IMG/VR virus record: IMGVR_UViG_3300009419_000132
Span: 1 to 20,272 of that record
Source of the DNA: a virus
Length of the DNA stretch: 20,272 nucleotides
Strand: one strand, 5' to 3'
The notes under the pieces are model-generated. The model did no database searches, was not told the origin of the DNA, and worked only from the letters and a program-made list of their open reading frames with translations. Position numbers and translations under genes: made by a program. Shown piece by piece: positions 2,719 to 20,153 of this stretch. The first letter of the stretch is position 1. The number at the start of each line of letters is the position of its first letter.

Positions 2719-3138
2719 ATGGCAAGTGTAGACATGAATTTTCCTTTATTTAAGGGAAAAACATTTAGTGATTTGTTGGGAGATATTTATGAAAACCAAC
2801 AAAGTAAAAAGAAAAACATTTCTGGTCTTATTGAAGAAATGAGAAAATTGGTAACTAAACCATCCGATGTAATTACTATCGGTCCTATCATTACGCAATT
2901 AATTGAAGCGAGTATTAGTAACGATGACCATTTAATTAAGATTGCAAATATAGCACAAAAGTTAGTATTAGCAAACACTAAGAAAGCAGGTGATGAAGGT
3001 TGGTTAAGTGAAGATGATAAGAAAGCATTGTTAGAAGAAATGGATGTTGTAGCAAAAGAAATTACACAAAGTACAGACGATAAGATTGAAGATTTAGAAT
3101 TTGAAATTGAATCATTAAAAGAAAGTATAGGTAAATAA
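2719..3138 (+). CDS. Conserved-looking small helical phage protein, function unknown
   Basis: A 139-residue protein with no signal peptide or membrane segment. The N-terminus (residues 8-27, FPLFKGKTFSDLLGDIYENQ) is followed by predicted helices. The last third is highly acidic/charged with heptad-like spacing (about 100-138, ending in EDLEFEIESLKESIG), suggesting a short coiled coil. I do not recognise a named family; I have an impression of similar hypothetical proteins next to baseplate genes in T4-like marine phages, unverified. It heads the cluster that follows the first large gap and ends in a one-base overlap (TAATG) with the gp5-like gene, so a role in tail assembly, such as a chaperone or small virion protein, is plausible but only inferred from position. 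No Shine-Dalgarno sequence precedes it. Confidence 0.78.
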   Translation: MASVDMNFPLFKGKTFSDLLGDIYENQQSKKKNISGLIEEMRKLVTKPSDVITIGPIITQLIEASISNDDHLIKIANIAQKLVLANTKKAGDEGWLSEDDKKALLEEMDVVAKEITQSTDDKIEDLEFEIESLKESIGK

Positions 3139-4439
3139 TGGCAATAAGTAATTACGTATCTAGTAAATCGGGCGGTTCAGTACAAACATCAGTAGGTAGG
3201 GGTGGACAAGAAACTAAACTTGCTTCGGTGGCATTTGTATTTACTGAAAAAGATGATATAGTTGAAAAATTAACTGATACCGATAAGATATTTGAAGAAA
3301 TAGAAAATACATCGGATTACTTTGAAAAAGATGGTTTGTATTATGGTGCAATTCGATATAGAACACCTGAACAGGCTGAAACTAAAGATGAAGATTTAAA
3401 AGTAGCGTTTCCATTAGATAGATACAACTTTACATTACCTGTTAGGGGTGAGATTGTATTTATAGATGTTATAAATGGTAAACCTTTTTATAAAGCTATT
3501 GGTTTCCAAAATTCAGTTGGCTTTAATACAAATTTAGATGTATTACTTAACACCATAAAAACAATTGAATCAAATAGTAATACAGCGGGTTTAGCTAATT
3601 TTAAAGAAGTACAAGCAACCGGTATTGCAAATTCAAATGAACCAAACGTTACCCAAACAACAGTAAACAAAGGGTTCGCCGGTAAGTATTATAAACGAAA
3701 TGTTAGATTACATCAATTAAAACCAAATGAAGGTGATACATTACTACAAGGTAAAGCAGGTAACTCAATTCGTTTTAGTGGATACATTCATAGTGATAGA
3801 ACCGATGGTAAACAATACCCTGCTATATTAATTCGTAATGGTGAGAATGCAGAATCACAGACTAATAATAAAGTATTTGATACAACGATTGAAGATGTAA
3901 ATAAAGATGGTACATCAATTCAAATTACTTCAGGAGAATATATTAGTTTATTCAAAGAGACAGTAGCTGTTGATAAAGAAGCAGTTGGTAAATACCCATC
4001 TTCGGATGAATTAAAAGGAGACCAAATTGTAGTTAATAGTGGTAGAGTAATCATATCATCAAAAACTGCAGAGACTTTTTTGTTTAGTAAGAAAAATATT
4101 AGTATCTTTACGGATGATATTGTATCAATAGATGCAGAAAGAGGTTTAAACTTTATTGTTCAAAATGGTCCTATCCAAATAGCAGCTAGTGGAAATAACA
4201 ATATAATAATTGGTGTTGAAAATGGAAAAATATTTGCAGGAAATGATGCCGCAGAAGAACCAATGATATTGGGAAATGTAATGGTTGATTTAATAGGTAG
4301 ATTGATAGATGCTATAAATCAAATGACAATTGCAACTCCATCTGGTCCTTCATCACCTGGTCCTATTGATAAAGCAGTATTTAATAATATTAGAAACGAC
4401 TTAAAAACAGCATTATCTAAAACTAATTATTTAATCTAA
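3138..4439 (+). CDS. gp5: gp5-like baseplate hub/central spike protein (OB-fold, no lysozyme domain)
   Basis: A 433-residue protein with the layout of a phage tail-spike/hub protein. Residues about 90-125 (FPLDRYNFTLPVRGEIVFID and onward) look like the start of an OB-fold. Residues 199-214 hold GDTLLQGKAGNSIRFSG, the signature seen in gp5/gpV-type OB domains of marine phages. Residues about 295-370 are alternating short beta stretches (SGRVIISSK, GLNFIVQNGPIQIAASGNN, ENGKIFAGND) resembling a triple-stranded beta-helix or rod. The C-terminus (about 375-433) is a helix with a Pro/Ser/Gly turn (TPSGPSSPGPI). In T4, trimeric gp5 forms the membrane-piercing device and contains a lysozyme domain; nothing like that is seen here. 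The next gene, overlapping by one base, supplies a peptidase instead. The family call is confident; exact equivalence to gp5 is inferred. Confidence 0.68.
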   Translation: MAISNYVSSKSGGSVQTSVGRGGQETKLASVAFVFTEKDDIVEKLTDTDKIFEEIENTSDYFEKDGLYYGAIRYRTPEQAETKDEDLKVAFPLDRYNFTLPVRGEIVFIDVINGKPFYKAIGFQNSVGFNTNLDVLLNTIKTIESNSNTAGLANFKEVQATGIANSNEPNVTQTTVNKGFAGKYYKRNVRLHQLKPNEGDTLLQGKAGNSIRFSGYIHSDRTDGKQYPAILIRNGENAESQTNNKVFDTTIEDVNKDGTSIQITSGEYISLFKETVAVDKEAVGKYPSSDELKGDQIVVNSGRVIISSKTAETFLFSKKNISIFTDDIVSIDAERGLNFIVQNGPIQIAASGNNNIIIGVENGKIFAGNDAAEEPMILGNVMVDLIGRLIDAINQMTIATPSGPSSPGPIDKAVFNNIRNDLKTALSKTNYLI

Positions 4440-5830
4440 TGTCTTGGTCTCAATTTAGAAGTGAAGTTGGTAGTAGAATGAAAGAAGCTAATTGGAAAAC
4501 ATCCGATGAGTGGGCAAAGTTCTTTACTAAAAAATATGATGAGTGTATTAAGAGAGGAATGGATTTAAGTGGTAAAAATCCAGTTCTAAAAGGAAATACT
4601 GAATTAATGGAACAAACCTTAATTAATGCAGGTCAGATAGCATTAGCGGCAAAAACACCGGCTTTCTATGGTACATATTTAAATTTAATAGGACAGGCGG
4701 TAATTGGGTATTGGAGTACGGCAACTTTACAAAAAATGAGTACACCATTAATTCCAGCACCAGGTACAATTTTAAACTTACAAGTAACAAATAACTATTG
4801 TACAAATCCAGGAAAATTTATAGGAACACCTACTCCACCGACAAAAGATGTTGATACGTTCTTAAGTTCATTTATTTCAGCAGCTACAATACATTTAACA
4901 ACAATTAGTGGAACAACTGAATTAATTTCACAATACATTCCACCCTTACCAATAGGACCTGCAATTGCAACTTGGACCGGATATAAAATAGAGGGGTCTA
5001 CTAAAAGAGTTAGACCAGTTGTTGTAGAAGAAATATTACCTGACCCACCATTAGAAGATGATTCACCAATAGTTGAAGGTAAAGCACATTTTGATCATGA
5101 AAAGAGAAATGGTAGAGTTAGATTTAATAGAGTAGCGGATGCAGAAAATCCAGCTTTATTAGAACAACCAAAACGAGTTTTATATAAAGCACCGGAGCCA
5201 GTTAGAGCAACAACTCCAGCACCACAAACAACAACTGAAAGAATACAACAGACTGTATCAACACCACTTACACAGGATGTATTAGAACCAATTAAATATA
5301 TGGGAGCAATTGGAGTAACAGCTCCACAACCTGCACCTGGTTTAGCAATTTACAAAAATGGATTTATAGATACAAAACAATTAGTTCCAATTGCAAATGG
5401 TGGTCGTTATAATGGTAAATATATTATAGAAAAAAAGGCAGCAGAAAATTTCCTAAAGTGGCATGCACAGGCAGATAGAGATGGATTTTCATTTACCGTC
5501 ACATCCGCATATAGAGATTTTGAATATCAAAATGGTTTAAATTCAAAAAGTAAAGCAGCCGGCGGGGGTAAAACAGTAACCGTTGCAAGTGCGGGTAAAT
5601 CAGTACATGGTTTGGGATTGGCAATTGATATAGGTGAATTATATAGATTAGTAGGTGGAAGCGGGAGTCTTTCAAAAAATGCTACAGCTAGGTCTAATAG
5701 TAAACTATACAAATATTTAGCTAAAACAGGTCCACAATATGGTTGGTATAATCCAATTAGATTAGCAGATGGAGCGGGTAGTGTTGATGAATGTTGGCAT
5801 TGGGAATATTGGGGATATTATAAAAAATAA
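4439..5830 (+). CDS. Tail-associated structural protein with C-terminal M15 (VanY-like) D-Ala-D-Ala peptidase domain
   Basis: A 463-residue two-part protein. Residues 1-190 are a non-enzymatic domain (amphipathic N-terminal helices, an Ala/Gly-rich helical stretch 60-105, and another at 140-180) that I do not recognise. Residues about 190-300 are a Pro/Thr-rich linker. Residues about 305-463 are an M15 zinc peptidase: SAYRD (356-360), SVHGLGLAIDI (zinc ligands H390 and D397) and ECWHWEYWG (catalytic E451, zinc ligand H454). Such enzymes cut D-Ala peptide bonds in peptidoglycan. The position right after the spike gene and the fused structural domain argue for a virion cell-wall-piercing enzyme rather than a free endolysin, though lysis cannot be excluded. 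The start overlaps the upstream stop (TAATG). No signal peptide is seen. Confidence 0.85.
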   Translation: MSWSQFRSEVGSRMKEANWKTSDEWAKFFTKKYDECIKRGMDLSGKNPVLKGNTELMEQTLINAGQIALAAKTPAFYGTYLNLIGQAVIGYWSTATLQKMSTPLIPAPGTILNLQVTNNYCTNPGKFIGTPTPPTKDVDTFLSSFISAATIHLTTISGTTELISQYIPPLPIGPAIATWTGYKIEGSTKRVRPVVVEEILPDPPLEDDSPIVEGKAHFDHEKRNGRVRFNRVADAENPALLEQPKRVLYKAPEPVRATTPAPQTTTERIQQTVSTPLTQDVLEPIKYMGAIGVTAPQPAPGLAIYKNGFIDTKQLVPIANGGRYNGKYIIEKKAAENFLKWHAQADRDGFSFTVTSAYRDFEYQNGLNSKSKAAGGGKTVTVASAGKSVHGLGLAIDIGELYRLVGGSGSLSKNATARSNSKLYKYLAKTGPQYGWYNPIRLADGAGSVDECWHWEYWGYYKK

Positions 5831-6324: not shown

Positions 6325-6747
6325 GTGGCAAGAGTATTAGAAAAGAAATTCTTAGTAGATGAGCAAGACAAAAGTGTTGGTGTTACACTTCCATTAAGGA
6401 AAGGAAACAACGGATACTTTGAAGTGTCTTATACAACTAAAGACCAAATTAAATCTAATATTAAATCATTATTGTTAACCCAAAAAGGTGAAAGAGTGAT
6501 GCAACCCAATTTTGGTTCTGATTTAAAAAAATGTTTATTTGAACCAATTACCCAAAATTTAGATTCTATTATAGAAGATAATATTACGGAAGCAATCAAT
6601 ACTTGGATGCCATATGTTACAGTCGAAAGTATAATTTATGATGTAGATAATACATTAAAAGATAGAAATAGAATAGATTTAGAATTAAAATATAGTTTGA
6701 AATATTCTAACTCACAAATATTAGAACAATTAAATATAGTAATATAA
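6325..6747 (+). CDS. gp25: gp25-like baseplate wedge / sheath initiator protein
   Basis: A 140-residue protein of the GPW/gp25 family. The signature is at residues 50-74: LLTQKGERVMQPNFGSDLKK, then CLFEP, followed by the helix with IIEDNITEAINTWMPYV (82-98) and the beta strands of the C-terminus. In T4 and other contractile systems this small protein sits where the baseplate meets the tube and sheath and starts sheath polymerisation. Despite the older annotation as a lysozyme it is structural. The length is typical. Translation starts at a GTG, the only non-ATG start I accept here, justified by the strong AAGGGG at 6311-6316 and the absence of a better ATG. It is followed one base later by the gp6-like gene, an order common in contractile tail clusters. 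Confidence 0.93.
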   Translation: MARVLEKKFLVDEQDKSVGVTLPLRKGNNGYFEVSYTTKDQIKSNIKSLLLTQKGERVMQPNFGSDLKKCLFEPITQNLDSIIEDNITEAINTWMPYVTVESIIYDVDNTLKDRNRIDLELKYSLKYSNSQILEQLNIVI

Positions 6748-6748
6748 A

Positions 6749-8785
6749 ATGGCATTAAAACCTATCGATAAAAGTTGGGCAACAAATAAAAAAGATATTA
6801 AATATCTTAATAGAGATTTTGCATCCTTAAGACAAGCATTAGTTGAATTTACTAAAACATATTATAGTAACACTTATAACGATTTTAGTGAAGCATCACC
6901 GGGTATGATGTTCATTGAGCAAGCAGCATATGTTGGAGATATTCTTTCATATTATACCGATGCTCAATTGAAAGAATCATTTATTAACTTAGCAAGTAAT
7001 AAAAATAACATTTATCAATTAGCACAGAACTTAGGATATAAACCAAAAATTTCTACGCCTGCAAGTGTTACTTTAACTTTGTATCAAACATTACCTTCTA
7101 AATGGATGTCAAGTGATAATACAATTGTTAACTATGAACCGGATTTTGATTATGCATTAAAAATTAATGAAGGTATGTTAGTGGGTTCTAATTCTAACCA
7201 AAATGTTGAATTTTTAACAACAGATTTTGTAGATTTTGCAGATGAAAATAATAGAGAAGTAAGTGTATTTACAGTAGATGCTAGTAATAATCCTATAACT
7301 TATTTGATTACAAAAAAAGTATCAGCAATTAGTGCAACGAGATATACACAAACGTTTGATGTTGGTGAATTTAAACCAAATCCTACATTTAGACTTACAT
7401 CTACTAATTTTATTAAAATAGAAAGTGTAAAAGATAGTGATGATACTACGTATTATGAAGTTCCTTATTTAGCACAAGAAATGGTTTATATTAAATCACC
7501 AAATGAAGCATATAACGAACCAATCTTAGCAACTGCTAATTCACCTAAGTATATTTTAAAATTACAACAAACAAACAAAAGATTTACAACTCGTTTAGTA
7601 GATGAGCAAACTATTGAATTAAGATTTGGTAGTGGAAATGAATCAACACCGGATGAATTATTAATTCCAAATACAAAGAATGTAGGATTGGGATTAAACA
7701 ATTCAATCAATAGAATGGGTGAATCGTTTGACCCTTCTAACTTTTTGAAAACAAATACATATGGTATAGCACCTGCACAAACCACATTAACAGTTAATTA
7801 TTTAGCAGGTGGTGGTATTCAATCAAATGTACCACAGGGTGATTTAACAAAAATAAAAGCAGTTTCATTTAACGATGATATATTAGCATTTACTGAAATT
7901 AATTTTCCTGTATATAATGAAGCAAGACGTTCATTGGTTGTAGAAAATATAGAACCTGCAACTGGTGGTAAAGGTTTTGAAACAATTGAAGAAATTAGAG
8001 AGAATGCAATTGCTACTTTTGGTGCACAAAATAGAGCAGTAACTAAAAAAGATTACGAAGTTAGAGCATTGGCAATGGATACTATGTTTGGTGGTGTTGC
8101 AAAAGTATATGTTGAACAAGATGGTTCGATTGATACAAACGCAGCACAACAAGTTTTAAGAAATCCATCAGTTAAAAAAGATTTTACTAATTTAGTTAAA
8201 TCATTAAAAAGTTCAACCGATGATGAAATTACTTTAGCATTAGATACATTCTTAAAAACAAAACAAACATTTGCAGTGGAAAGTAATCCATTCGCAATTA
8301 ATATGTATTTGTTGGGATATGATTCTAATAATAAATTAACTAGACTAAACGCAACAGTAAAACAAAATTTAAAAACATATTTAGAAGAATATAGATTATT
8401 GACAGATGCTATTAATTTAATTGATGGTTACATTGTTAATATTGGTGTAAATTTTGATATAACCGTTTTTGCTAATTATAACAAAAGAGAAGTTGTATTG
8501 AAGTGTGTACAAGTAGTAACTAACTATTTTGATATTAATAAATGGAAAATGAATCAATCAATTAATTTAAGTGAATTAGAATTAGAATTAGCAAATGTAG
8601 ATGGGGTTTCATCAGTTCCTAAAGTAGAAATAGTAAATTTAGCAGATTCAACCGGAGACACCTATTCAGAATATTCATATAACATAATTGAAGCAACTAG
8701 AAATAAGATTGTGTATCCATCATTGGATCCTTCTATATTTGAAATTAAATATCCAAACAAAGATATTAAGGGGAGAGCATTATAA
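6749..8785 (+). CDS. gp6: gp6-like baseplate wedge protein (baseplate J family)
   Basis: A 678-residue structural protein. The N-terminus (about 15-100: DIKYLNRDFASLRQALVEF, then FSEASPGMMFIEQAAYVGD) is typical of gp6-like wedge proteins of T4-related phages. The J-like core is seen at about residues 398-450 with VENIEPATGGKGFETIEEI and AQNRAVTKKDYEVRALA. The remainder is mixed beta/alpha with Asn-rich stretches. In T4 a gp6 dimer with gp7 forms the inner ring of the baseplate, clamps adjacent wedges together and changes shape when the sheath contracts. The length is close to T4 gp6 (660). It directly follows the gp25-like gene and its stop overlaps the next ATG by one base; near its end is the AAGGGGAG ribosome-binding site of that gene. 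Confidence 0.9.
   Translation: MALKPIDKSWATNKKDIKYLNRDFASLRQALVEFTKTYYSNTYNDFSEASPGMMFIEQAAYVGDILSYYTDAQLKESFINLASNKNNIYQLAQNLGYKPKISTPASVTLTLYQTLPSKWMSSDNTIVNYEPDFDYALKINEGMLVGSNSNQNVEFLTTDFVDFADENNREVSVFTVDASNNPITYLITKKVSAISATRYTQTFDVGEFKPNPTFRLTSTNFIKIESVKDSDDTTYYEVPYLAQEMVYIKSPNEAYNEPILATANSPKYILKLQQTNKRFTTRLVDEQTIELRFGSGNESTPDELLIPNTKNVGLGLNNSINRMGESFDPSNFLKTNTYGIAPAQTTLTVNYLAGGGIQSNVPQGDLTKIKAVSFNDDILAFTEINFPVYNEARRSLVVENIEPATGGKGFETIEEIRENAIATFGAQNRAVTKKDYEVRALAMDTMFGGVAKVYVEQDGSIDTNAAQQVLRNPSVKKDFTNLVKSLKSSTDDEITLALDTFLKTKQTFAVESNPFAINMYLLGYDSNNKLTRLNATVKQNLKTYLEEYRLLTDAINLIDGYIVNIGVNFDITVFANYNKREVVLKCVQVVTNYFDINKWKMNQSINLSELELELANVDGVSSVPKVEIVNLADSTGDTYSEYSYNIIEATRNKIVYPSLDPSIFEIKYPNKDIKGRAL
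8768..8775 (+). promoter_or_regulatory. Strong Shine-Dalgarno for the 8785 start
   Basis: AAGGGGAG ends nine bases before the ATG at 8785, inside the end of the gp6-like gene. It is the second of only two strong Shine-Dalgarno sequences noticed in the window, and suggests independent high-level initiation for the Ser-rich structural protein. Confidence 0.65.
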
Positions 8786-10605
8786 TGGTACTATTTTATA
8801 CCGCATCAAAAGATGCAAGTATTTATTTACAACAACCTTACCAAAATACTGGTATAGATGAGGTATTAGAAATTTCTAAAGTGTATTATGGTGATACACG
8901 AGATAATAGTAGAGTATTAATTCAGTTTGATACTATGGAAATATCTAAAAGTGTATTTGAATTACAAAATGAAAAATTACAAACTATATCATCTTCAATA
9001 TATAGTAATAACTTAATTTCCAGTTCTTGGTCATCTAGTGTTTCAACTTCTAATTATTATTCAGCCTCTTATAATACAATATCACAATCATTATTTATTG
9101 CAAATGTAAGTGCTAGTGCAGTATCAGCATCGTTATTTACTTATACAAATACAACCTCTGAATTATCAACCGATTATTTAGAAGCATCACATTCGGTATA
9201 TTTACAATTGGTTCCTGTGGTTAGTGCAATAGCATTACAATCTATAACATTATCACCACTATCGGCATCATATACATTAATTTCTTCATCATATAGTACA
9301 TTATTAGCAACACAGACGGGTTCTATTGCAGATGATGTATTGGCTGAATCATTTGGTACATTATCAGCATCATATGCAACCGCACTTAATACGTCGGCAT
9401 CTTTATTAATTCAATCAGCTTCTTTATATAATGAAATAGTTGAATTAAATACATTGTTTACTAGAGTGGTTAATAGTAGTGCATCCGCATCTTATTCTGC
9501 TAGTCAATTTATACCTCAATTACAAACATCAGCTTCAGTATTATCGGGTTCAATTTATACATTAAGTGTAAGTGCATCAATACTTTCATCATCATGGCAT
9601 GTAGCAAATATAAGTTCTAGTTTATTTAGTTCATCTTATAATGAAACATCACAATCAATTTTAACTATAATTCAAAATGGTGGATATGATTTTCCATTTA
9701 CCGCATCTTTACAATTAAAATTAACTAAAGCAGAGGAATTAGCTGCTAATTTTAGAATTGAAGCATATCAGGTTAGTGGTAGTTGGGAAATGGGTACCGG
9801 TACTCGTTTTGATAACCTTACTACAAATGGTTTAAGTTGGTATTATAGAAATGGTGATAATACATCTACACATTGGTATAATACAATGGATGGTATTACA
9901 GCATCTTATTCTACGTTTGTAGATGGTAATGCAGATGGTTTAGGTGGTGCATGGTATAGTAGTTCAGTTGTAACACAATCTTTTAGTTATACCTTAGATG
10001 ATATTAATTTAGATGTTACAAACTTTATTAAAAGTTGGAATAGTGGTAGTATTCAAAATAATGGATTAATACTTAAATTCCCAAATAGTTATGAAACTGA
10101 TACTGTTGATTATGGTACTATTAAATTTTTCTCAAAAGAAACGAATACAATATATCAACCTAAATTAGTAATAACTTATCCTGAAACAAGTACAAGTGGT
10201 TCATTAATTGATATTACCGAATTTGCGGCTAGTAGTAGTTATGATGTAGTATATCGTTGTTATTCACCAAATTTGAAAGGCTCTTATACAAAAGGTCAGA
10301 AAGTATCTATAAAGGTGGATGCGAGAGAGTTATACCCTATTAAACAATTCAATAGTACGTTTGCATATCAAGTTAAATACTATCTGCCAAATGAGGCCTA
10401 TTACGCAGTAATGGATACTTTAACAAAAGAATTTATTATAGATTACTCACCAAATACAAAAGTATTAAGGGGGTTACGCAATAATATGATTAACTTAAAC
10501 TTTACCAATTGGCCTATCGGTAGAAATTACACATTATTTGTAAAATCAATTGATACCAATAACGAAGAAATTTTCGAAATTGGTAGTTTTGATATTTATG
10601 AATAA
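8785..10605 (+). CDS. DNRLRE-like virion structural protein with a Ser-rich insertion
   Basis: A 606-residue protein in three parts. Residues 1-60 (KDASIYLQQPYQNTGIDEVL, then DNSRVLIQFD) look like the first strands of a DNRLRE-type jelly roll. Residues about 66-290 are a low-complexity Ser/Ala/Tyr/Leu-rich stretch with repeated SASY, SSSY, SSSW and SASL motifs spaced like a fibrous or coiled region. Residues about 300-465 resume the jelly-roll pattern: ASLQLKLTKAEEL, YQVSGSWEMGTGTRFDN, DVTNFIKSWNSGSIQNNGLI and YQPKLVITY. Residues 480-606 form a separate C-terminal beta domain. There is no transmembrane segment or enzyme motif. Its place after gp6 suggests a baseplate or fibre-attachment role. 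The DNRLRE assignment rests on motif recall and is moderately sure. Confidence 0.72.
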   Translation: MVLFYTASKDASIYLQQPYQNTGIDEVLEISKVYYGDTRDNSRVLIQFDTMEISKSVFELQNEKLQTISSSIYSNNLISSSWSSSVSTSNYYSASYNTISQSLFIANVSASAVSASLFTYTNTTSELSTDYLEASHSVYLQLVPVVSAIALQSITLSPLSASYTLISSSYSTLLATQTGSIADDVLAESFGTLSASYATALNTSASLLIQSASLYNEIVELNTLFTRVVNSSASASYSASQFIPQLQTSASVLSGSIYTLSVSASILSSSWHVANISSSLFSSSYNETSQSILTIIQNGGYDFPFTASLQLKLTKAEELAANFRIEAYQVSGSWEMGTGTRFDNLTTNGLSWYYRNGDNTSTHWYNTMDGITASYSTFVDGNADGLGGAWYSSSVVTQSFSYTLDDINLDVTNFIKSWNSGSIQNNGLILKFPNSYETDTVDYGTIKFFSKETNTIYQPKLVITYPETSTSGSLIDITEFAASSSYDVVYRCYSPNLKGSYTKGQKVSIKVDARELYPIKQFNSTFAYQVKYYLPNEAYYAVMDTLTKEFIIDYSPNTKVLRGLRNNMINLNFTNWPIGRNYTLFVKSIDTNNEEIFEIGSFDIYE

Positions 10606-11672: not shown

Positions 11673-12974
11673 ATGGCACTAAACGATTTTAAAAATATTG
11701 AAAATATAAATCTTAATTTAGATACAACGGCTCAATTACTAAATTCAAAAGATTTAAATATATTCAAAACATCAATATCAAATGTTACTGATTTCGGAAT
11801 GTCTAAAAATGATGTTATTGAATTTAGAGTATACGATATTGGAAATAATTTATTAGAACAAACGGGTGGTAAAACTGTAAACTATATTCATAAAGATAAC
11901 TTACCAAAATATTTAAAATCATCAATAGATACAAAAACACAAGAAAAGATATTTGAAATTGATGTTGAGAAATTAGTTAAAGAAGCGGGATATGGTAATG
12001 GTGAATTTAAAGTTGTATTTAATTTTTTAAAGAACTATGTTGGTAACGAAAATCAAAAACAAAAAGTTTGGATACATGAAGTTTCACCAAGTAGAACGGA
12101 AATTCGTATACAACCATTGATAACAAACGATGAAAATCAAAATAGGCAAATCCAACGTAGATATACCTCATTTATGGATGGAGCAGCGGAACTAAGAGAG
12201 AATGTTATTAATATAAAAAATCAAATAGATAAAGTTGAATTACAAATAAGTGAGTTAATTGATAAATATTTTATAGAAAAGCATGGTCAGAAATGGTTAG
12301 ATGTTGTTAAAGCAGATTTCAAATTTTTAACCGACTCACAATACAAATTATTTAAGCAAAAAATATTTACTGATTTTAAGACAAGTGTGTTTGCACAATT
12401 GGATGGTAACGAATTTAAGTTAGGTAATCCTAATTTTAATAAACAAGTAACAACACCTTTCGATTTAGATGAATACTTAACACCTATCGAAATTAATGCA
12501 TTGGTAAATTCTAGATTAATTGAAGCTATTGATTATAATATGAGTAATGTTACATATAAAGATTACCCACAGGCAATAAAGGATATTATCAATCAAAAGA
12601 AAGATTTACAGGTATTACAAAATTTGTTAGATACAACTACAATTTCAAAATCTAATTTAACACAAACACAAAAATTAGGAAAGGTAAATAAGGATGTAAA
12701 AATAACACCAAATACACCTATTGTAGAAATTATTGATGAACCTATTTTAAAAAAGATAGATCCACCAGTAGTAGAACCACCAATTAAAGTAATACCAACA
12801 CCTGATGTAATTGCAGTTCCTGATGTAATTGCAGTTCCTAGAGAACCTGTATATGGTGGAGGTGGAGGTTTTGGTGGTGAAATGATTGATAATAGTAGAT
12901 TGGATGGTGGTTATGGTAGAGAGCAACTTTTTAATAATGATGGGTTAAATCAACAAAGAGAAAACCTAAGATAA
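11673..12974 (+). CDS. Virion structural protein with SPSRTEIR motif, Pro-rich and Gly-rich tail
   Basis: A 433-residue protein. Residues about 40-150 form a beta domain (NDVIEFRVYDIGNNLLEQ ... EFKVVFNFLKNYVG) closing with SPSRTEIRI (138-146). This sentence-like motif is one I associate with structural proteins of T4-like marine phages, from memory only. Residues about 165-345 are mostly helical and charged. Residues about 345-395 are a Pro/Val-rich linker with a perfect repeat (PDVIAV twice), then GGGGGFGG (about 396-403) and a short Gln/Asn-rich tail. The linker suggests a tether between the virion and a mobile or protruding part. It may work with the next gene, whose N-terminus carries a similar Gly tract. 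No enzyme signature is seen, and the function beyond a tail/baseplate component is not determined. Confidence 0.75.
   Translation: MALNDFKNIENINLNLDTTAQLLNSKDLNIFKTSISNVTDFGMSKNDVIEFRVYDIGNNLLEQTGGKTVNYIHKDNLPKYLKSSIDTKTQEKIFEIDVEKLVKEAGYGNGEFKVVFNFLKNYVGNENQKQKVWIHEVSPSRTEIRIQPLITNDENQNRQIQRRYTSFMDGAAELRENVINIKNQIDKVELQISELIDKYFIEKHGQKWLDVVKADFKFLTDSQYKLFKQKIFTDFKTSVFAQLDGNEFKLGNPNFNKQVTTPFDLDEYLTPIEINALVNSRLIEAIDYNMSNVTYKDYPQAIKDIINQKKDLQVLQNLLDTTTISKSNLTQTQKLGKVNKDVKITPNTPIVEIIDEPILKKIDPPVVEPPIKVIPTPDVIAVPDVIAVPREPVYGGGGGFGGEMIDNSRLDGGYGREQLFNNDGLNQQRENLR
12801..12836 (+). repeat. Perfect 18-bp in-frame tandem duplication
   Basis: CCTGATGTAATTGCAGTT occurs twice in direct succession and is followed by CCT. 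It encodes PDVIAV twice in the Pro-rich linker of the preceding structural gene. The absence of any difference between copies points to recent duplication by slippage, and the unit keeps frame. Confidence 0.9.
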
Positions 12975-12988: not shown

Positions 12989-15900
12989 ATGAGTTTAAGC
13001 GATATATACAATAGAAACCAGGCTGGAGCTTTATATACTCCAATTAATGATAACACCTTTGATTTTACCTATGGTGGTGGAGGTGGTGGTGGTAACACTC
13101 CACCAACGGTTTCAACGGCTCCTACGTTTGATGTTAAATTAACACTAAGAAACGCAACTGCTGTTCCTAATGTTTTTACATTTGATGTACAAAATAGAAC
13201 ATACAATGAAAATGCAACGGTTGAATTAAATAGTAATACTTTAAATGATGTATTAAGAGTAAACCCAACTGCAAGAGATAATTTTCAACCTACTAATAGA
13301 TTTGAAATTGTTAAAAAATTAATTGAAAAAAAGATATTAGTAAAAGATGTTATTGATTATCAACCATACGCATTTAATTTAGATCCGGCTTCATCATTAT
13401 TTGGTGGTATGGGTGGTAATACTGGATTTAGTGGGTTGGGATTTATAAATACTCCTATACCATCTAGACCTGATTTAAATAAATTTACTGAAATTTCACA
13501 AATAATTAAAGTAAATGGTGTTGAGGTAAATGAATATGATAATAATAATCTATTATTAACATCAGCCGACTATCCATTAGCAGCTAACATTGTATTAGAT
13601 TTTAAAGGAACAAACAAAACAATAGTTACCAAAGTAACTCAAACATATACTAGAACTCAATCTATACAATTTACTTCAAATTATACAAACGATACGTTAT
13701 ATAATGAAATTGAAATTGAGATTAATAGTATTGATTTAACGGCTGGTAAAGTTGTTAATAAACTAAATACAAATGGTGGTGAATTATTACTAACAAATAC
13801 CATAGGTAAATTAAATCCTGTTGATATTTCGTTTAAAGGATTTAGTGCTTTTACATTTAGAAATTTATATTGGCAATATATTGATAAAATAGATACAAAT
13901 ACATTAAATCTGGCAGAGTTTAATAGTGTGAATGATACCACGCTTAAATTAAGTGCAGACCAGTTTAATAGAAATATTGTAGTTTATTTAGATGTAGTGC
14001 CGGCTAATGCAAAACTACCAAATCTTACACTTAAAAATAATAAAATTGAGCAAAGTATTTTAGAATCGGTATATGATTCTAAAACGGAAAGTGCTTTAAT
14101 TGATATTGATTTAACGATTGGTAATACGGATTATGTAAGAATTAAAACTCCTTATAGAGAATTTAATCAACAATTAGTGGCAACAACAGCTACTACTAAT
14201 AGAATTACATTAGATTTAAAACGAGATTTCTTAAATAATGAAGGTTCTTTTAAAGTATTATTAGTACCCGCTTCTAATCTATATGGTGATGGTTCAGTAT
14301 CGGAAGTTATTGTAAAACTTACTAAAACATTTGATACTCCAATTATTGATAAATTAGATTATCCAACTAATGTTTACATTCCATCATATACATTTGGTGA
14401 TGTTAAATTTAAAGTTGATTTTGAATCTACGTTAGCGGATTATATATTAGTATATCATAGTACCGAAAATGATAATAATATTTTAGGTAAGTTTGGTTCG
14501 AAAGGTTCTCTTATATTAAATTACAATGAATTAAAGAATAAACAAATTAAGTTACCACTTGATTTATTATTAGTTCCATACAATGATGGTACTAAGGTAG
14601 TTAGAGGTGAAACTGAACGATTACAAATAACATTTTCTGATGCAGGTATTTATGTATCTACACAGGATTTAAAGGATAATTTATTTAGTGCAATTTCTAA
14701 GAACTTAAATTTAACACTACAAACCGAAGAAAAATATTTATCACATATTGCATCATTTGATAAAAATGATTCACAAATATTAATATCAAACTGGGATACT
14801 GATTTAACTACATTTACTAACTTTAAAAGAGATGAGTTAGGTAATCAGGTACCAGATGGTCAAATAAATAAAAGTGTTGTATTAAAGTTATATGAAGCAT
14901 TGCCGGCAAACATTACTAAAAATGATGTTTTGTGGGTTTCTAGATTATCTTCATTACCAATTATACAAAAGGTAATTATTAATAGTAATCCTGAAGATAA
15001 TACATTACCATTAAGAGCACCTAACTTTAATATTCAAACTGATTATGTAAAAGGTCAATCAACTATATATGAATCTTACAATGATTTAATATTAAGTGGT
15101 TCATTTACATCACAACAATTAGTAGATAAATACCTTACTGAAAATTTAGTAGAAACTGCTAAAATAAACATAGACTATTCAGAGTTTTCTAATTTTGTAA
15201 AATATAGTAGTGCAAAAGAAAGATTAACTAACTTTAGATATAAAAAAGAATTAGCTGAGTATTATGAAGATAAGATTATATTTTTAAGTGCATCTTATTA
15301 CGAAACGGCTAGTGTTATCACATTAAATGATATTGAAACCTATACGGATAAACTTTCTACATTAGTAAGTGGGTTTGATGGTTGGGAAAAAAGTTTAGTA
15401 AGTGGTTCAGTAACGTTCACAGCAGATACTGCATCTTATCAATCATTTCCTGGTGGTAGATTTAATTTATTTAATGGGACTAGTTCATTTATTGATAATG
15501 GTGCAACTTATATAACCGATACTAATTCTACATTACAAAGTTGGTTTGTTGGTACATACGATTCTGCATCTTTTTATGATGATAATAATTTATCTTCATT
15601 AAGAAACAACATACCATTGTTTATAAGTGATGATAGTGAAAATGAAGAATTTTTATTATTTTTAGATATGATTGGTAACCACTTTGATATTATACACACA
15701 TATATCAAAGGGATGACAGAACAAAGATTGATAAGTGAAAATAATTCATATGGTATTAATGATGAATTACTTTACAACTATTTACAATCATTAAGTTGGG
15801 ATGCTAAGAATCTTAATTCAAATAAACAACTTTGGAATTATACATTTGGACAAGATGGTGATGGTGTTAATAATTTTGAACTTAATAAAATTGATGATGA

Positions 15901-18229
15901 AGATTATCAAATAACACCTGAAGAATATACAAAAAAGATTTGGAGAAGAATATCTAATAACTTACCTTATTTATTAAAACATAAAGGTACAGGTAGAGGT
16001 ATTAGAGCATTGATGAGTTGTTATGGTGTTCCTCAAAGTGCATTAACAATAATGGAATTTGGTGGACCAGCCGATAATAGATTAGCATCTGCTTCTTTAT
16101 TTACATACGAAACACAAAGTCCTACATTAGTATTTAATACTGATTCATATATTACAGCAAGTTGGAGTGGAAGTACAAAACCGCAATCAATTGAATTAGT
16201 AGTAAAACCTACATACGACACATCTATTAATTTAGTTAGTGGCAGTGGTTTTAAATTATACATTAATGGTGGGGTTGAATTTAATGGTAATGTTAATACA
16301 CAATATGGTACATTGGGATTAGATGTAGCCGGAGCAACCATATTTGAAACAGCACCATATACATTCTTTGATGGTAATTTCCACACCATATTATTAACTA
16401 AAGAATATGATGGTAGTAATTCGGACTTTACAATTTATTATGGATATGCAGAGAAAGATAGAGTTGTAAAGAAAGAAATTGAATATACATCCGCAGCAAA
16501 TAATGCTTGGGAAAGTGGCTCGCATATTTATATTGGTGGATTTAAAGGTGAATTGGATGAAGTTAAAATATGGAAATCAGCATTAAGTGCTTCTTTATTT
16601 GATATTCATTTGTTAGATAGTGAAAATATGATTGGTAATTATATTTCCGCATCAACAGAAGATTTATTGATAAGATTAGATTTCGAAAATCCACATCAAC
16701 TTTCCGGTTCTGTTATTGAAATCCAATCCGGTAGTGTAAAAGATTATATTAAAAACGTTGCACCTAATGTTATATTATCAAATGTTACAAGTAGTGTAAA
16801 ATATGGTGAAAGATTATTAGAAAGTGGATATGTTTCGTATGTTAGTGCAAGTGGATTTGATTCAGCCTCTCAATATAATACCGGTTCACATCAACATTGG
16901 AATTATTTATATAGAACAAAAGATTCAGCCGTTGAGTTACCAAACACAGGTGTAACAAGATTATCTAATAATAAGATTAGAATTGAAGGACAAGAATTAA
17001 TAGGCGATTTATCTCCAACAAAAAGAGTTACTAAAAAAGCATTTGATACGGCAGCAAATGATTCTAATAGATTAGGATTATTTTTCTCACCTAATAAAGA
17101 TTTAGATTTGAATATTGCAAAATCATTCGGTGGTGATGCAATTGATGATTACTTTGGTGACCCGGCAGATGAATATAATAACACTTACAAAGATTTAGAT
17201 AAATTAAGGAATTACTATTTTCAAAGAATTAATAATAGAAACATTTATGATTTTATTCGTTTAATTAAATACTACGATAAATCATTGTTTGTTAATATTA
17301 AACAAATGTTGCCTGCGAGAGTTAAAGCAACAACTGGTTTACTTATAGCTCCCCATTTTTTAGAAAGAAGTAAAGTTAAACATACTAAACCAACTGCTGA
17401 AAATACACAATTAGAAGGTGTAATTAGTGATACAACGATTACAACATTACATTCTACATTTGATACGTATGAAGGTGAGTTGAATTTATCCGAATCAATT
17501 GATGTGTTAAGTGGTGAATATAACACATATGAAGCAAGTATTTTAACCGAAGACGTTACTACAATAGCCGGTGAATTTAATACCTATGAAGTAACTATAA
17601 ATGATATTGTTGAAGATTTAGTTTCAGCAACATATGATACATACGAAGGCGTTATTGATTTTAGATTAACCGATCCTACTATATTAGCACAATATGATGT
17701 ATTTGGTGGTGCAACTATTATCGGTTTAGATGACAAATATAGTGATTATGGATTTAACACATATTTTAATAATGGTTATGGTAAATATCATTATGAAGAA
17801 AATGGTTCATTTAAATCTAAAGGTGTTAGAGCATTTTTAGTAACAAAACAAGATACTATCATAATACCAAGTGCAAGTATAGATGGTATTTATACAAATG
17901 TATTAACATCATCTTATCATAATGAATTAATTATACAAGATATTGGTGTGAGTGGAAGTTTAGCAAGTGATCCTAAAATAGTTGCAATAGCAACAGCTAG
18001 TGGATATTTACCATCACATTATATTTATAAAGGTGGAAAACATATTGGATTGCAAAATTTGTTTTATAGAGGAAGTAAAAATACATCTTATATTGCAAAT
18101 GGAACAACTGGTTCTTTAACTACAATAGATGGTAAATCTCCGGTTGAAGAGTTTGTAACTAATCCAACTGTTCTTAGAATTAATAAACAAGGTAGAAACA
18201 CAACTGAACCAATTTTGGAAGTTGATTAA
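12989..18229 (+). CDS. Giant baseplate/tail protein: gpI/gp7-like helical region, LamG-like domain and FDTYE repeats
   Basis: A 1746-residue structural protein. The N-terminus has a Gly run (29-35) and beta-rich segments that repeat in style through about residue 690 (several fibronectin- or Ig-like strands). Residues about 725-800 are helical (SAKERLTNFRYKKELAEYYE). Residues about 880-1025 are helical with YGINDELLYNYLQSLSWDAK and RRISNNLPYLLKHKGTGRGI, resembling P2 gpI/T4 gp7-type wedge proteins at the HKGT...GI...YG motif. Residues about 1045-1215 form a LamG/concanavalin-like jelly roll (SIELVVKP, FHTILLTKEY, HIYIGGFKGELDEVKIWKSA). Residues 1488-1595 hold six copies of a roughly 20-residue repeat around [FY][ND]TYE. 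The last 130 residues form another beta domain. It probably completes the wedge with gp6 and reaches toward the host surface; domain roles are inferred. Confidence 0.8.
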   Translation: MSLSDIYNRNQAGALYTPINDNTFDFTYGGGGGGGNTPPTVSTAPTFDVKLTLRNATAVPNVFTFDVQNRTYNENATVELNSNTLNDVLRVNPTARDNFQPTNRFEIVKKLIEKKILVKDVIDYQPYAFNLDPASSLFGGMGGNTGFSGLGFINTPIPSRPDLNKFTEISQIIKVNGVEVNEYDNNNLLLTSADYPLAANIVLDFKGTNKTIVTKVTQTYTRTQSIQFTSNYTNDTLYNEIEIEINSIDLTAGKVVNKLNTNGGELLLTNTIGKLNPVDISFKGFSAFTFRNLYWQYIDKIDTNTLNLAEFNSVNDTTLKLSADQFNRNIVVYLDVVPANAKLPNLTLKNNKIEQSILESVYDSKTESALIDIDLTIGNTDYVRIKTPYREFNQQLVATTATTNRITLDLKRDFLNNEGSFKVLLVPASNLYGDGSVSEVIVKLTKTFDTPIIDKLDYPTNVYIPSYTFGDVKFKVDFESTLADYILVYHSTENDNNILGKFGSKGSLILNYNELKNKQIKLPLDLLLVPYNDGTKVVRGETERLQITFSDAGIYVSTQDLKDNLFSAISKNLNLTLQTEEKYLSHIASFDKNDSQILISNWDTDLTTFTNFKRDELGNQVPDGQINKSVVLKLYEALPANITKNDVLWVSRLSSLPIIQKVIINSNPEDNTLPLRAPNFNIQTDYVKGQSTIYESYNDLILSGSFTSQQLVDKYLTENLVETAKINIDYSEFSNFVKYSSAKERLTNFRYKKELAEYYEDKIIFLSASYYETASVITLNDIETYTDKLSTLVSGFDGWEKSLVSGSVTFTADTASYQSFPGGRFNLFNGTSSFIDNGATYITDTNSTLQSWFVGTYDSASFYDDNNLSSLRNNIPLFISDDSENEEFLLFLDMIGNHFDIIHTYIKGMTEQRLISENNSYGINDELLYNYLQSLSWDAKNLNSNKQLWNYTFGQDGDGVNNFELNKIDDEDYQITPEEYTKKIWRRISNNLPYLLKHKGTGRGIRALMSCYGVPQSALTIMEFGGPADNRLASASLFTYETQSPTLVFNTDSYITASWSGSTKPQSIELVVKPTYDTSINLVSGSGFKLYINGGVEFNGNVNTQYGTLGLDVAGATIFETAPYTFFDGNFHTILLTKEYDGSNSDFTIYYGYAEKDRVVKKEIEYTSAANNAWESGSHIYIGGFKGELDEVKIWKSALSASLFDIHLLDSENMIGNYISASTEDLLIRLDFENPHQLSGSVIEIQSGSVKDYIKNVAPNVILSNVTSSVKYGERLLESGYVSYVSASGFDSASQYNTGSHQHWNYLYRTKDSAVELPNTGVTRLSNNKIRIEGQELIGDLSPTKRVTKKAFDTAANDSNRLGLFFSPNKDLDLNIAKSFGGDAIDDYFGDPADEYNNTYKDLDKLRNYYFQRINNRNIYDFIRLIKYYDKSLFVNIKQMLPARVKATTGLLIAPHFLERSKVKHTKPTAENTQLEGVISDTTITTLHSTFDTYEGELNLSESIDVLSGEYNTYEASILTEDVTTIAGEFNTYEVTINDIVEDLVSATYDTYEGVIDFRLTDPTILAQYDVFGGATIIGLDDKYSDYGFNTYFNNGYGKYHYEENGSFKSKGVRAFLVTKQDTIIIPSASIDGIYTNVLTSSYHNELIIQDIGVSGSLASDPKIVAIATASGYLPSHYIYKGGKHIGLQNLFYRGSKNTSYIANGTTGSLTTIDGKSPVEEFVTNPTVLRINKQGRNTTEPILEVD
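17450..17773 (+). repeat. About six 19-20-residue [FY][ND]TYE repeats in the giant structural gene
   Basis: The repeat core begins at residues 1491, 1511, 1530, 1549, 1569 and 1589 (FDTYE, YNTYE, FNTYE, YDTYE, YDVFG, FNTYF), a steady period of 19-20 residues. The DNA copies have diverged, so this is an old protein-level repeat. The form suggests a beta-solenoid or fibrous shaft. Confidence 0.75.
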
Positions 18230-18929: not shown

Positions 18930-20153
18930 ATGGCACAATTAGGATCAAATACTGGTACACAACTTACCAATGATATAGCAAATTATCTAACACAACAAAG
19001 GCAAGCTGCTAATGGTGCAATAGATACAACACAATTGGCTACTATTATTAACAATTACCTTACAACAGGTGAAAAGTTAGTAATGGAAACAGGAGTAACA
19101 ACTAACTCAGTATATAAAGTATTTAATACAACAGATATCGTTACTGCTAAAAATGAAATAGTAACAACCGGTATTTGGAGTAACGGAAGTGGTAGTTTAA
19201 CTGCATTTTTCACTAGCTCTACTGCAACAGCAGGTGGTAGTGGTTCTGCAACTGATGAGTATTACTATAATGTATATGCTTCATCTAATACGGGTTCTGC
19301 TCCAGTTGAATTTGCAGTATCTTATGGGCATATTACCGGTGGTGGTGCTACTGATTTGGCAACTGATGATAATTCAACCTTACCAACAAAAGCAACTTAC
19401 GCACAATATAGAGCATTATTAACTGATACTAATGAAACAAATTTCCGTTTCTATTCTGGTTCAACTGAAGATGCTTATAGTAGTAGTGATATTTACGTAA
19501 TTAATTTAAGTAGAGCTAATTATAGAGAAAGAATGGATGCTGGAAACTGGCAAATTACATTGACTGGTACAAGTGGTTCATTTACATTTATCGATAATAG
19601 TGGTGAGAAGTTTAATACTACAAATAGTGGTACAAACGAATTTAACATTGTTAGTGGTTCATTAAATTTAGGAACAAATACAGCAGCAACTATTAATTCA
19701 TATGTAGCAACTGATGGTAAAGGTTTTGGTAAATTCTATCCTGATTATGGTATATTAATATTCAATCCAACGGCATTAGCAACTACATTGGGTGCTCAAA
19801 CAATATTACCTACTACAACTACAACGGCTAATTCATTTAATCATATTAAATTATTTAATGCTATTAGTGGTGGTGGCGATTTTGAAGCAAGAAGAATTGA
19901 AAATGTATCAACAGCACATTACTTTGTAAGAGTTAATAATAGAGAATTTAACTATTCTAATAACCCTACATTTGTAACTGGTTCTCAAGGTGATTTCTAT
20001 AACGCAGCATTTACAACTGATCCTGTTGTTTATCCTACTACAATTGGATTATTCAACGATTCAAACGAATTGATTGCAGTAGCTAAAACATCTAAACCAA
20101 TCGCTAAATCATTTAGTAAAGAAGTATTGGTAAAAGTTAAATTAGATTTCTAA
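18930..20153 (+). CDS. Virion structural protein, baseplate/tail-associated, family resembling marine phage structural proteins
   Basis: A 407-residue protein. It has a short helical N-terminus (about 5-50), then a beta-rich body with VEFAVSYGHITGGG (122-135), ATYAQYRALLTDTNETNFRF, SSSDIYVINLSRANYRERMD and GNWQITLTG. The C-terminal third has GKFYPDYGILIFNPTAL, HYFVRVNNREFNYSNNPTF, YPTTIGLFNDSNELIAVAKT and the end KPIAKSFSKEVLVKVKLDF. From memory this whole pattern recurs in structural proteins of T4-like marine phages, but I cannot attach a T4 number; T4 gp8 also ends in a short hydrophobic strand with terminal F, which is weak evidence. It is the last gene before a strong terminator, closing the structural operon. 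Confidence 0.8.
   Translation: MAQLGSNTGTQLTNDIANYLTQQRQAANGAIDTTQLATIINNYLTTGEKLVMETGVTTNSVYKVFNTTDIVTAKNEIVTTGIWSNGSGSLTAFFTSSTATAGGSGSATDEYYYNVYASSNTGSAPVEFAVSYGHITGGGATDLATDDNSTLPTKATYAQYRALLTDTNETNFRFYSGSTEDAYSSSDIYVINLSRANYRERMDAGNWQITLTGTSGSFTFIDNSGEKFNTTNSGTNEFNIVSGSLNLGTNTAATINSYVATDGKGFGKFYPDYGILIFNPTALATTLGAQTILPTTTTTANSFNHIKLFNAISGGGDFEARRIENVSTAHYFVRVNNREFNYSNNPTFVTGSQGDFYNAAFTTDPVVYPTTIGLFNDSNELIAVAKTSKPIAKSFSKEVLVKVKLDF

Follow-up and report, generated by a model that had tools for sequence, protein, structure and literature searches.

What does the longest gene of a viral baseplate operon encode, and why does its product carry a LamG-like domain? The window, a virus record of 20,272 bases analysed over its full length, carries a myovirus baseplate operon, and a 1746-aa ORF is located downstream of its gp25 and gp6-like genes. 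A gpI/gp7-like wedge region, directly followed by a LamG-like domain, had been proposed for this ORF in the first-pass annotation, together with a role as the gp7 counterpart.

Baseplate operon and layout of the large protein

The following features were recognized in the operon and in the large protein:

3138-4439: hub-like ORF, with a weak DUF2345 match only
4439-5830: peptidase-bearing ORF (VanY, E 6e-17)
6325..6747, +: gp25-like wedge/sheath initiator (Pfam GPW_gp25, E 1.4e-16)
6749..8785, +: gp6/J-like wedge protein, the expected partner (phrog_219, E 3.4e-19; TIGR02243 below cut-off)
8785..10605, +: DNRLRE-domain protein, kept after gp6 in relatives
11673..12974, +: 433-aa ORF, residues 1-184 matching the N-terminal domain of the relatives' wedge protein
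12989..18229, +: very likely gp7/gpI-like baseplate wedge protein, 1746 aa; L009-L011 have homologues in a matching gene order
12989..14755, +: N-terminal extension specific to the lineage, residues 1-589, for the most part missing in L009-L011
14756..15523, +: family-conserved region preceding the gpI core, residues 590-845, from the alignment of homologues
15524..16072, +: first half of the gpI-like core, residues 846-1028, with the KGT helix and the strand ..LTIMEFGG at its end
15980..15991, +: HKGT motif, residues 998-1001
16073..16996, +: insert interrupting the core, residues 1029-1336
16112..16903, +: LamG/ConA-like jelly roll, residues 1042-1305
16997..17413, +: second half of the gpI-like core, residues 1337-1475 (KIRIE..FFSP..LPAR..G..I.P..LER)
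18930..20153, +: possible fibre-type tail protein, homologous to a multi-copy downstream family

Between the DNRLRE gene and the large ORF there were two more ORFs. The order gp25, gp6, DNRLRE protein, large protein, 18285-type and 18930-type protein was also found in Microcystis phage Mel-JY01 (L009), in an Immutovirus (L010) and in a 484-kb phage without annotation (L011). The large protein is thus encoded with gp25 and gp6/J, as a wedge protein should be, in the window and in all three phages. The family of the 18930..20153 product had five matches in Mel-JY01, and its position and copy number point toward a possible fibre-type tail protein. The DNRLRE protein had 606 aa in the window, where it includes an extended Ser-rich stretch, and 368 aa in the relative L002. 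Beside the operon, ORF 966-2684 may encode a carbamoyltransferase, by the look of its sequence. An annotated carbamoyltransferase is present in pelagiphage HTVC008M too.

The region singled out by the first-pass annotation (15626-16633) corresponds to residues 880-1215 of ORF 12989-18229, with HKGT at residue 998 followed by the ...GI...YG pattern. Its pairing of a gpI/gp7-type wedge protein and a LamG jelly roll in one protein stood. In the present analysis the jelly roll begins at ~1042 and the first gpI-like half spans ~846-1028. Two points had to be redrawn: the jelly roll ends at ~1305 instead of 1215, and the gpI-like region resumes at ~1337-1475, the LamG domain interrupting it and not following it. 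No separate gpI/gp7 was detected in the window, the three sequenced phages and 45 further family records (many of them fragments), in agreement with the earlier proposal.

A profile built from the first 240 residues of the relatives' wedge protein matched residues 1-184 of ORF 11673-12974 (E 1.2e-21) and not the large ORF, with the same result in L002. In the window lineage the wedge protein thus seems to have been divided between two genes, with some 830 residues gained on either side of the break.

Identity of the gpI-like core

Searching by tblastn with the large protein gave six phage records, while profile scans of viral contigs gave at least 551 relatives among at least 600 matched stretches, of which 80 were kept. 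Forty-two loci came from an Immutovirus query and two from MAG contigs. Most relatives had 1170-1400 aa, within a family range of 1170-1750 aa. Their core was unnamed by Pfam, NCBIfam and PHROG models in the members scanned. K-KGT-R was invariant in 6/6 full-length homologues aligned, and K.KGT.R...A.....G.P...L.....GG was invariant or nearly so in this six-sequence alignment.

At the position equivalent to this motif, P2 gpI has H.HKGT..AIR.....G.....TEWWE. The family shares with P2 gpI (Tail_P2_I, PF09684; TIGR02242) and R2 pyocin PA0619 a KR..(I/V)...(H)(R/K)..KGT...R......G helix and the strand after it, a J/gp6-like partner gene upstream and a small helix-sheet fold. In contrast, P2 gpI has only 176 aa and a short loop at the site where most of the family has 250-400 aa, and in the family the domain is embedded in much longer proteins (1170-1750 aa). 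By hhalign, residues ~982-1026 of the window protein aligned to P2 gpI 64-108, the right segments, at a weak score (Prob 17.8, P 0.0014), which was lower with larger alignments (Prob 1.9).

The TIGR02242 and PF09684 models were searched against 49 whole records and gave 8 matches each at E<=1 (one per model in a set of 7 records, seven per model in a set of 42). All 16 fell on the KGT motif of the large protein and none elsewhere. All were sub-threshold, none in the 7 or the 42 records exceeding the curated cut-off, and the window record had no match with either model at E<=1. Against 620 control ORFs, the three best matches of a profile of the first core half were a pair of proteins of the P2 gpI type and, from HTVC008M, the protein adjoining gp6 (E 0.011, 0.028 and 0.069; the next was 0.84). 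T4 gp7, P2 gpI itself and A-1(L) gp32 were absent among the matches listed. Searches of PDB sequences with the family profiles gave nothing relevant.

For the fold, an AlphaFold2 model of window residues 590-1490 was built from 59 sequences (pLDDT 58), in which the jelly roll was well predicted and the remainder poorer. Residues 1042-1305 form a beta-sandwich matching ConA/pentraxin/LamG folds (VIA Z up to 17.2, rmsd 3.4, 198 residues aligned), so the LamG/concanavalin-like domain proposed at first is real. Pfam Laminin_G_3 hit residues 1052-1201 below its cut-off (E 0.016). All chains listed by the fold search with this model were either jelly rolls, which cover the LamG and not the gpI part, or unrelated. 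We therefore modelled the core of the LamG-less L106, a phage nearly identical to L010 (Immutovirus type), from 69 sequences including the window (pLDDT 68). The core-fold match accordingly rests on L106, which is 29% identical to the window protein.

The best Foldseek match of the L106 core was the A-1(L) baseplate chain 8kea_c (E 0.018, prob 1.00, TM 0.54 on target), followed by chains of P1, a Streptomyces injection system, Pam3 and phiKZ. With VIA, the first eight matches were all baseplates (Z 6.1, 5.6, 5.2, 4.9, 4.5, 4.1, 4.0 and 3.8), followed by an unrelated chain (3.5) and Pam3 (3.4). As Z values under 8 are modest, it is the consistency of the baseplate list that carries weight. The chain 8kea_c is annotated as "wedge protein gp32" and is matched by the P2 gpI profile (E 0.0057); among the matched chains its gpI-type identity is established, the others being taken as baseplate chains. 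The match of the L106 model with phi812 covers both sides of the insertion site (model 185-367). The core fold thus resembles that of solved gpI-type wedge proteins. A-1(L) gp32 (Z 6.1), the closest structural counterpart, has 191 aa and lacks the jelly roll.

One could argue for a chance resemblance of the KGT region in a fibre-like or otherwise unrelated baseplate protein, given that every family match lies under the curated cut-offs and the hhalign probabilities are low. However, 16 of 16 model matches at one place, baseplate chains leading the structure search and a conserved gene order make this highly improbable. The product of 12989-18229 is very likely a gpI/gp7-type baseplate wedge protein.

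The homology is of the P2 gpI / A-1(L) gp32 type, and in this sense the proposed "gp7 counterpart" holds; a direct sequence match to T4 gp7 does not. T4 gp7 resembles the family in its position after gp6 and in size (1032 aa vs ~1170-1200 in most relatives), but sequence comparison gave no match. A T4 gp7 profile matched neither the family nor the records, in searches of which one lacked a positive control, and sequence homology to T4 gp7 proper is therefore unsupported. Since hhalign found no match between T4 gp7 and P2 gpI either, it is too weak here to exclude homology. T4 gp7 chains were also absent from the Foldseek and VIA listings for the L106 core, which is still compatible with homology to T4 gp7. 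In the injection-system proteins Alg12, Afp12 and Pvc12 the gp7-like part is, unlike here, fused to a gp6-like part, and the available portions of their descriptions mention no LamG insert.

In pelagimyophages, VrlC was proposed as a gp7 substitute (PMC7029224, in the sections available). The large protein is not VrlC: HTVC008M VrlC had only chance-level similarity to the family (best E 0.13 among 5 proteins). The "putative structural protein" adjoining gp6 in HTVC008M (L148:33435-36482) carries the KGT segment. This protein, rather than VrlC, may take the part of gp7 in pelagimyophages, contrary to what the available part of that paper proposes.

Insertion and divergence of the jelly roll

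The interval from the GG that follows the KGT strand to the KIRIE segment measured 250-400 aa in 87 of 121 relatives and 30 aa or fewer in 34, the latter being of the Immutovirus type (the alignment covers relatives other than L009-L011 and L016). The jelly roll (1042-1305) lies in this interval, and the LamG-like domain is therefore inserted inside the gpI core and not appended to it. The Immutovirus wedge protein (immuto35A_161, L010/L106) is a clear homologue over both gpI halves, but has no jelly roll, only 26 aa occupying the site. Flavobacterium phage vB_FspM_immuto likewise lacks LamG, and the insert of Microcystis phage Mel-JY01 is similar in length to the others. In the literature searched, whose limited coverage makes it weak evidence of absence, no paper describing a wedge protein with such an insert was found.

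The presence of the insert requires a single change on a tree of 57 rows built from the two core halves, in which the root and the long branches (window, L142, L092) are unsure. A hint that this change was a loss comes from L092, which adjoins the LamG-less group yet carries 302 aa at the site. The insert diverges slightly faster than the core: mean identity was 62% for the insert vs 65-66% for the core halves at a core identity of 0.6-0.7, 69% vs 73-76% at 0.7-0.8, and 75% vs 82-83% at 0.8-0.9. At a core identity of 0.3-0.5, as seen between distant groups, the insert was 24-28% identical and the core halves 35-47%, so some functional drift is possible.

Single relatives carried further modules. 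In L016 (L016:9410-14512, residues 712-1083) the jelly-roll region contains a complete propeller of the RCC1 type (WD40_RLD, E 1.4e-90). In L134 (L134:4335-7526, residues 525-706) another loop, before the KGT helix, holds a Fib_succ_major domain (E 3.1e-40); the best segment of this protein is 66% identical to Immutovirus. Extra length at the LamG site was considered for L114, L121, L130 and L134 and rejected, the extras being positioned elsewhere.

Possible roles of the inserted domain

In A-1(L), the gp32 segment Val129-Glu151 is reported to help anchor the long tail fibre, which binds directly to this loop (PMC10966104, as far as the accessible text goes). In an alignment of gp32 with P2 gpI, P130 falls on the P of PGTF, the strand start just past the insertion site; the insertion site matches this fibre-binding loop. 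In the available text on AlgoCIS, the authors describe the gp7-like part as a re-engineering hotspot that contacts fibres (PMC8894135).

We propose that the large protein serves as the gp7/gpI-type wedge subunit in the baseplate of a large aquatic phage with a contractile tail. The helical part of the protein would bundle with the gp6-like protein (6749-8785), the presumed partner, to form the wedge core, with the small gpI fold at the end of this core. The LamG/ConA jelly roll interrupts this fold past the strand that follows the KGT helix, ahead of the next strand, and probably lies on the outer rim of the wedge. There it could serve as a built-in docking platform for downstream-encoded fibre or peripheral proteins. 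The correspondence of the site to the fibre-holding loop of A-1(L) gp32 makes such a rim platform the most likely role, and the divergence of the insert, nearly in step with the core, favours a docking or structural part over a host-range tip. The data show which domains are present, how the insertion is arranged, that it was gained or lost once and that it diverges slowly, whereas the gp6 partnership, the rim position and the docking role are inferred. We put the docking role at a probability of roughly 55%.

The same wedge protein may instead use its jelly roll as a putative carbohydrate-binding module touching host glycans, the wedge itself being receptor-binding. The best fold matches of the jelly roll include carbohydrate-binding ConA-like proteins (4dqa, CBM40), single relatives add modules, as in L016 and L134, and a putative wedge variant of phage K8 is reported to bind the LPS core oligosaccharide (PMC9887876, in the accessible part). 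Nevertheless, a ConA/LamG fold alone does not show sugar binding, and near-parallel divergence with one gain or loss is unlike typical host-range tips, and we regard glycan contact as possible but doubtful. The slow, vertical divergence and the tolerance of Immutovirus-type phages for its absence would also suit a mere architectural spacer or stabiliser that contacts adjacent wedge or gp6 subunits and binds neither fibre nor glycan. Yet 250-400 aa is much for a spacer, and the equivalent site in A-1(L) is a loop in contact with the fibre, making a pure spacer improbable.

Beyond the docking role, we tentatively consider that the gp7/gpI wedge subunit of this very large aquatic myovirus family could be a receptor-binding platform whose surface loops accept lectin-type modules: LamG in most members, RCC1 nested in L016, and Fib_succ_major in a second loop of L134. 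The analysis assigns a likely function to a family of more than 550 viral-contig relatives, whose core had no model name in the members scanned, and reveals sites where such phages graft extra domains on a conserved wedge subunit.
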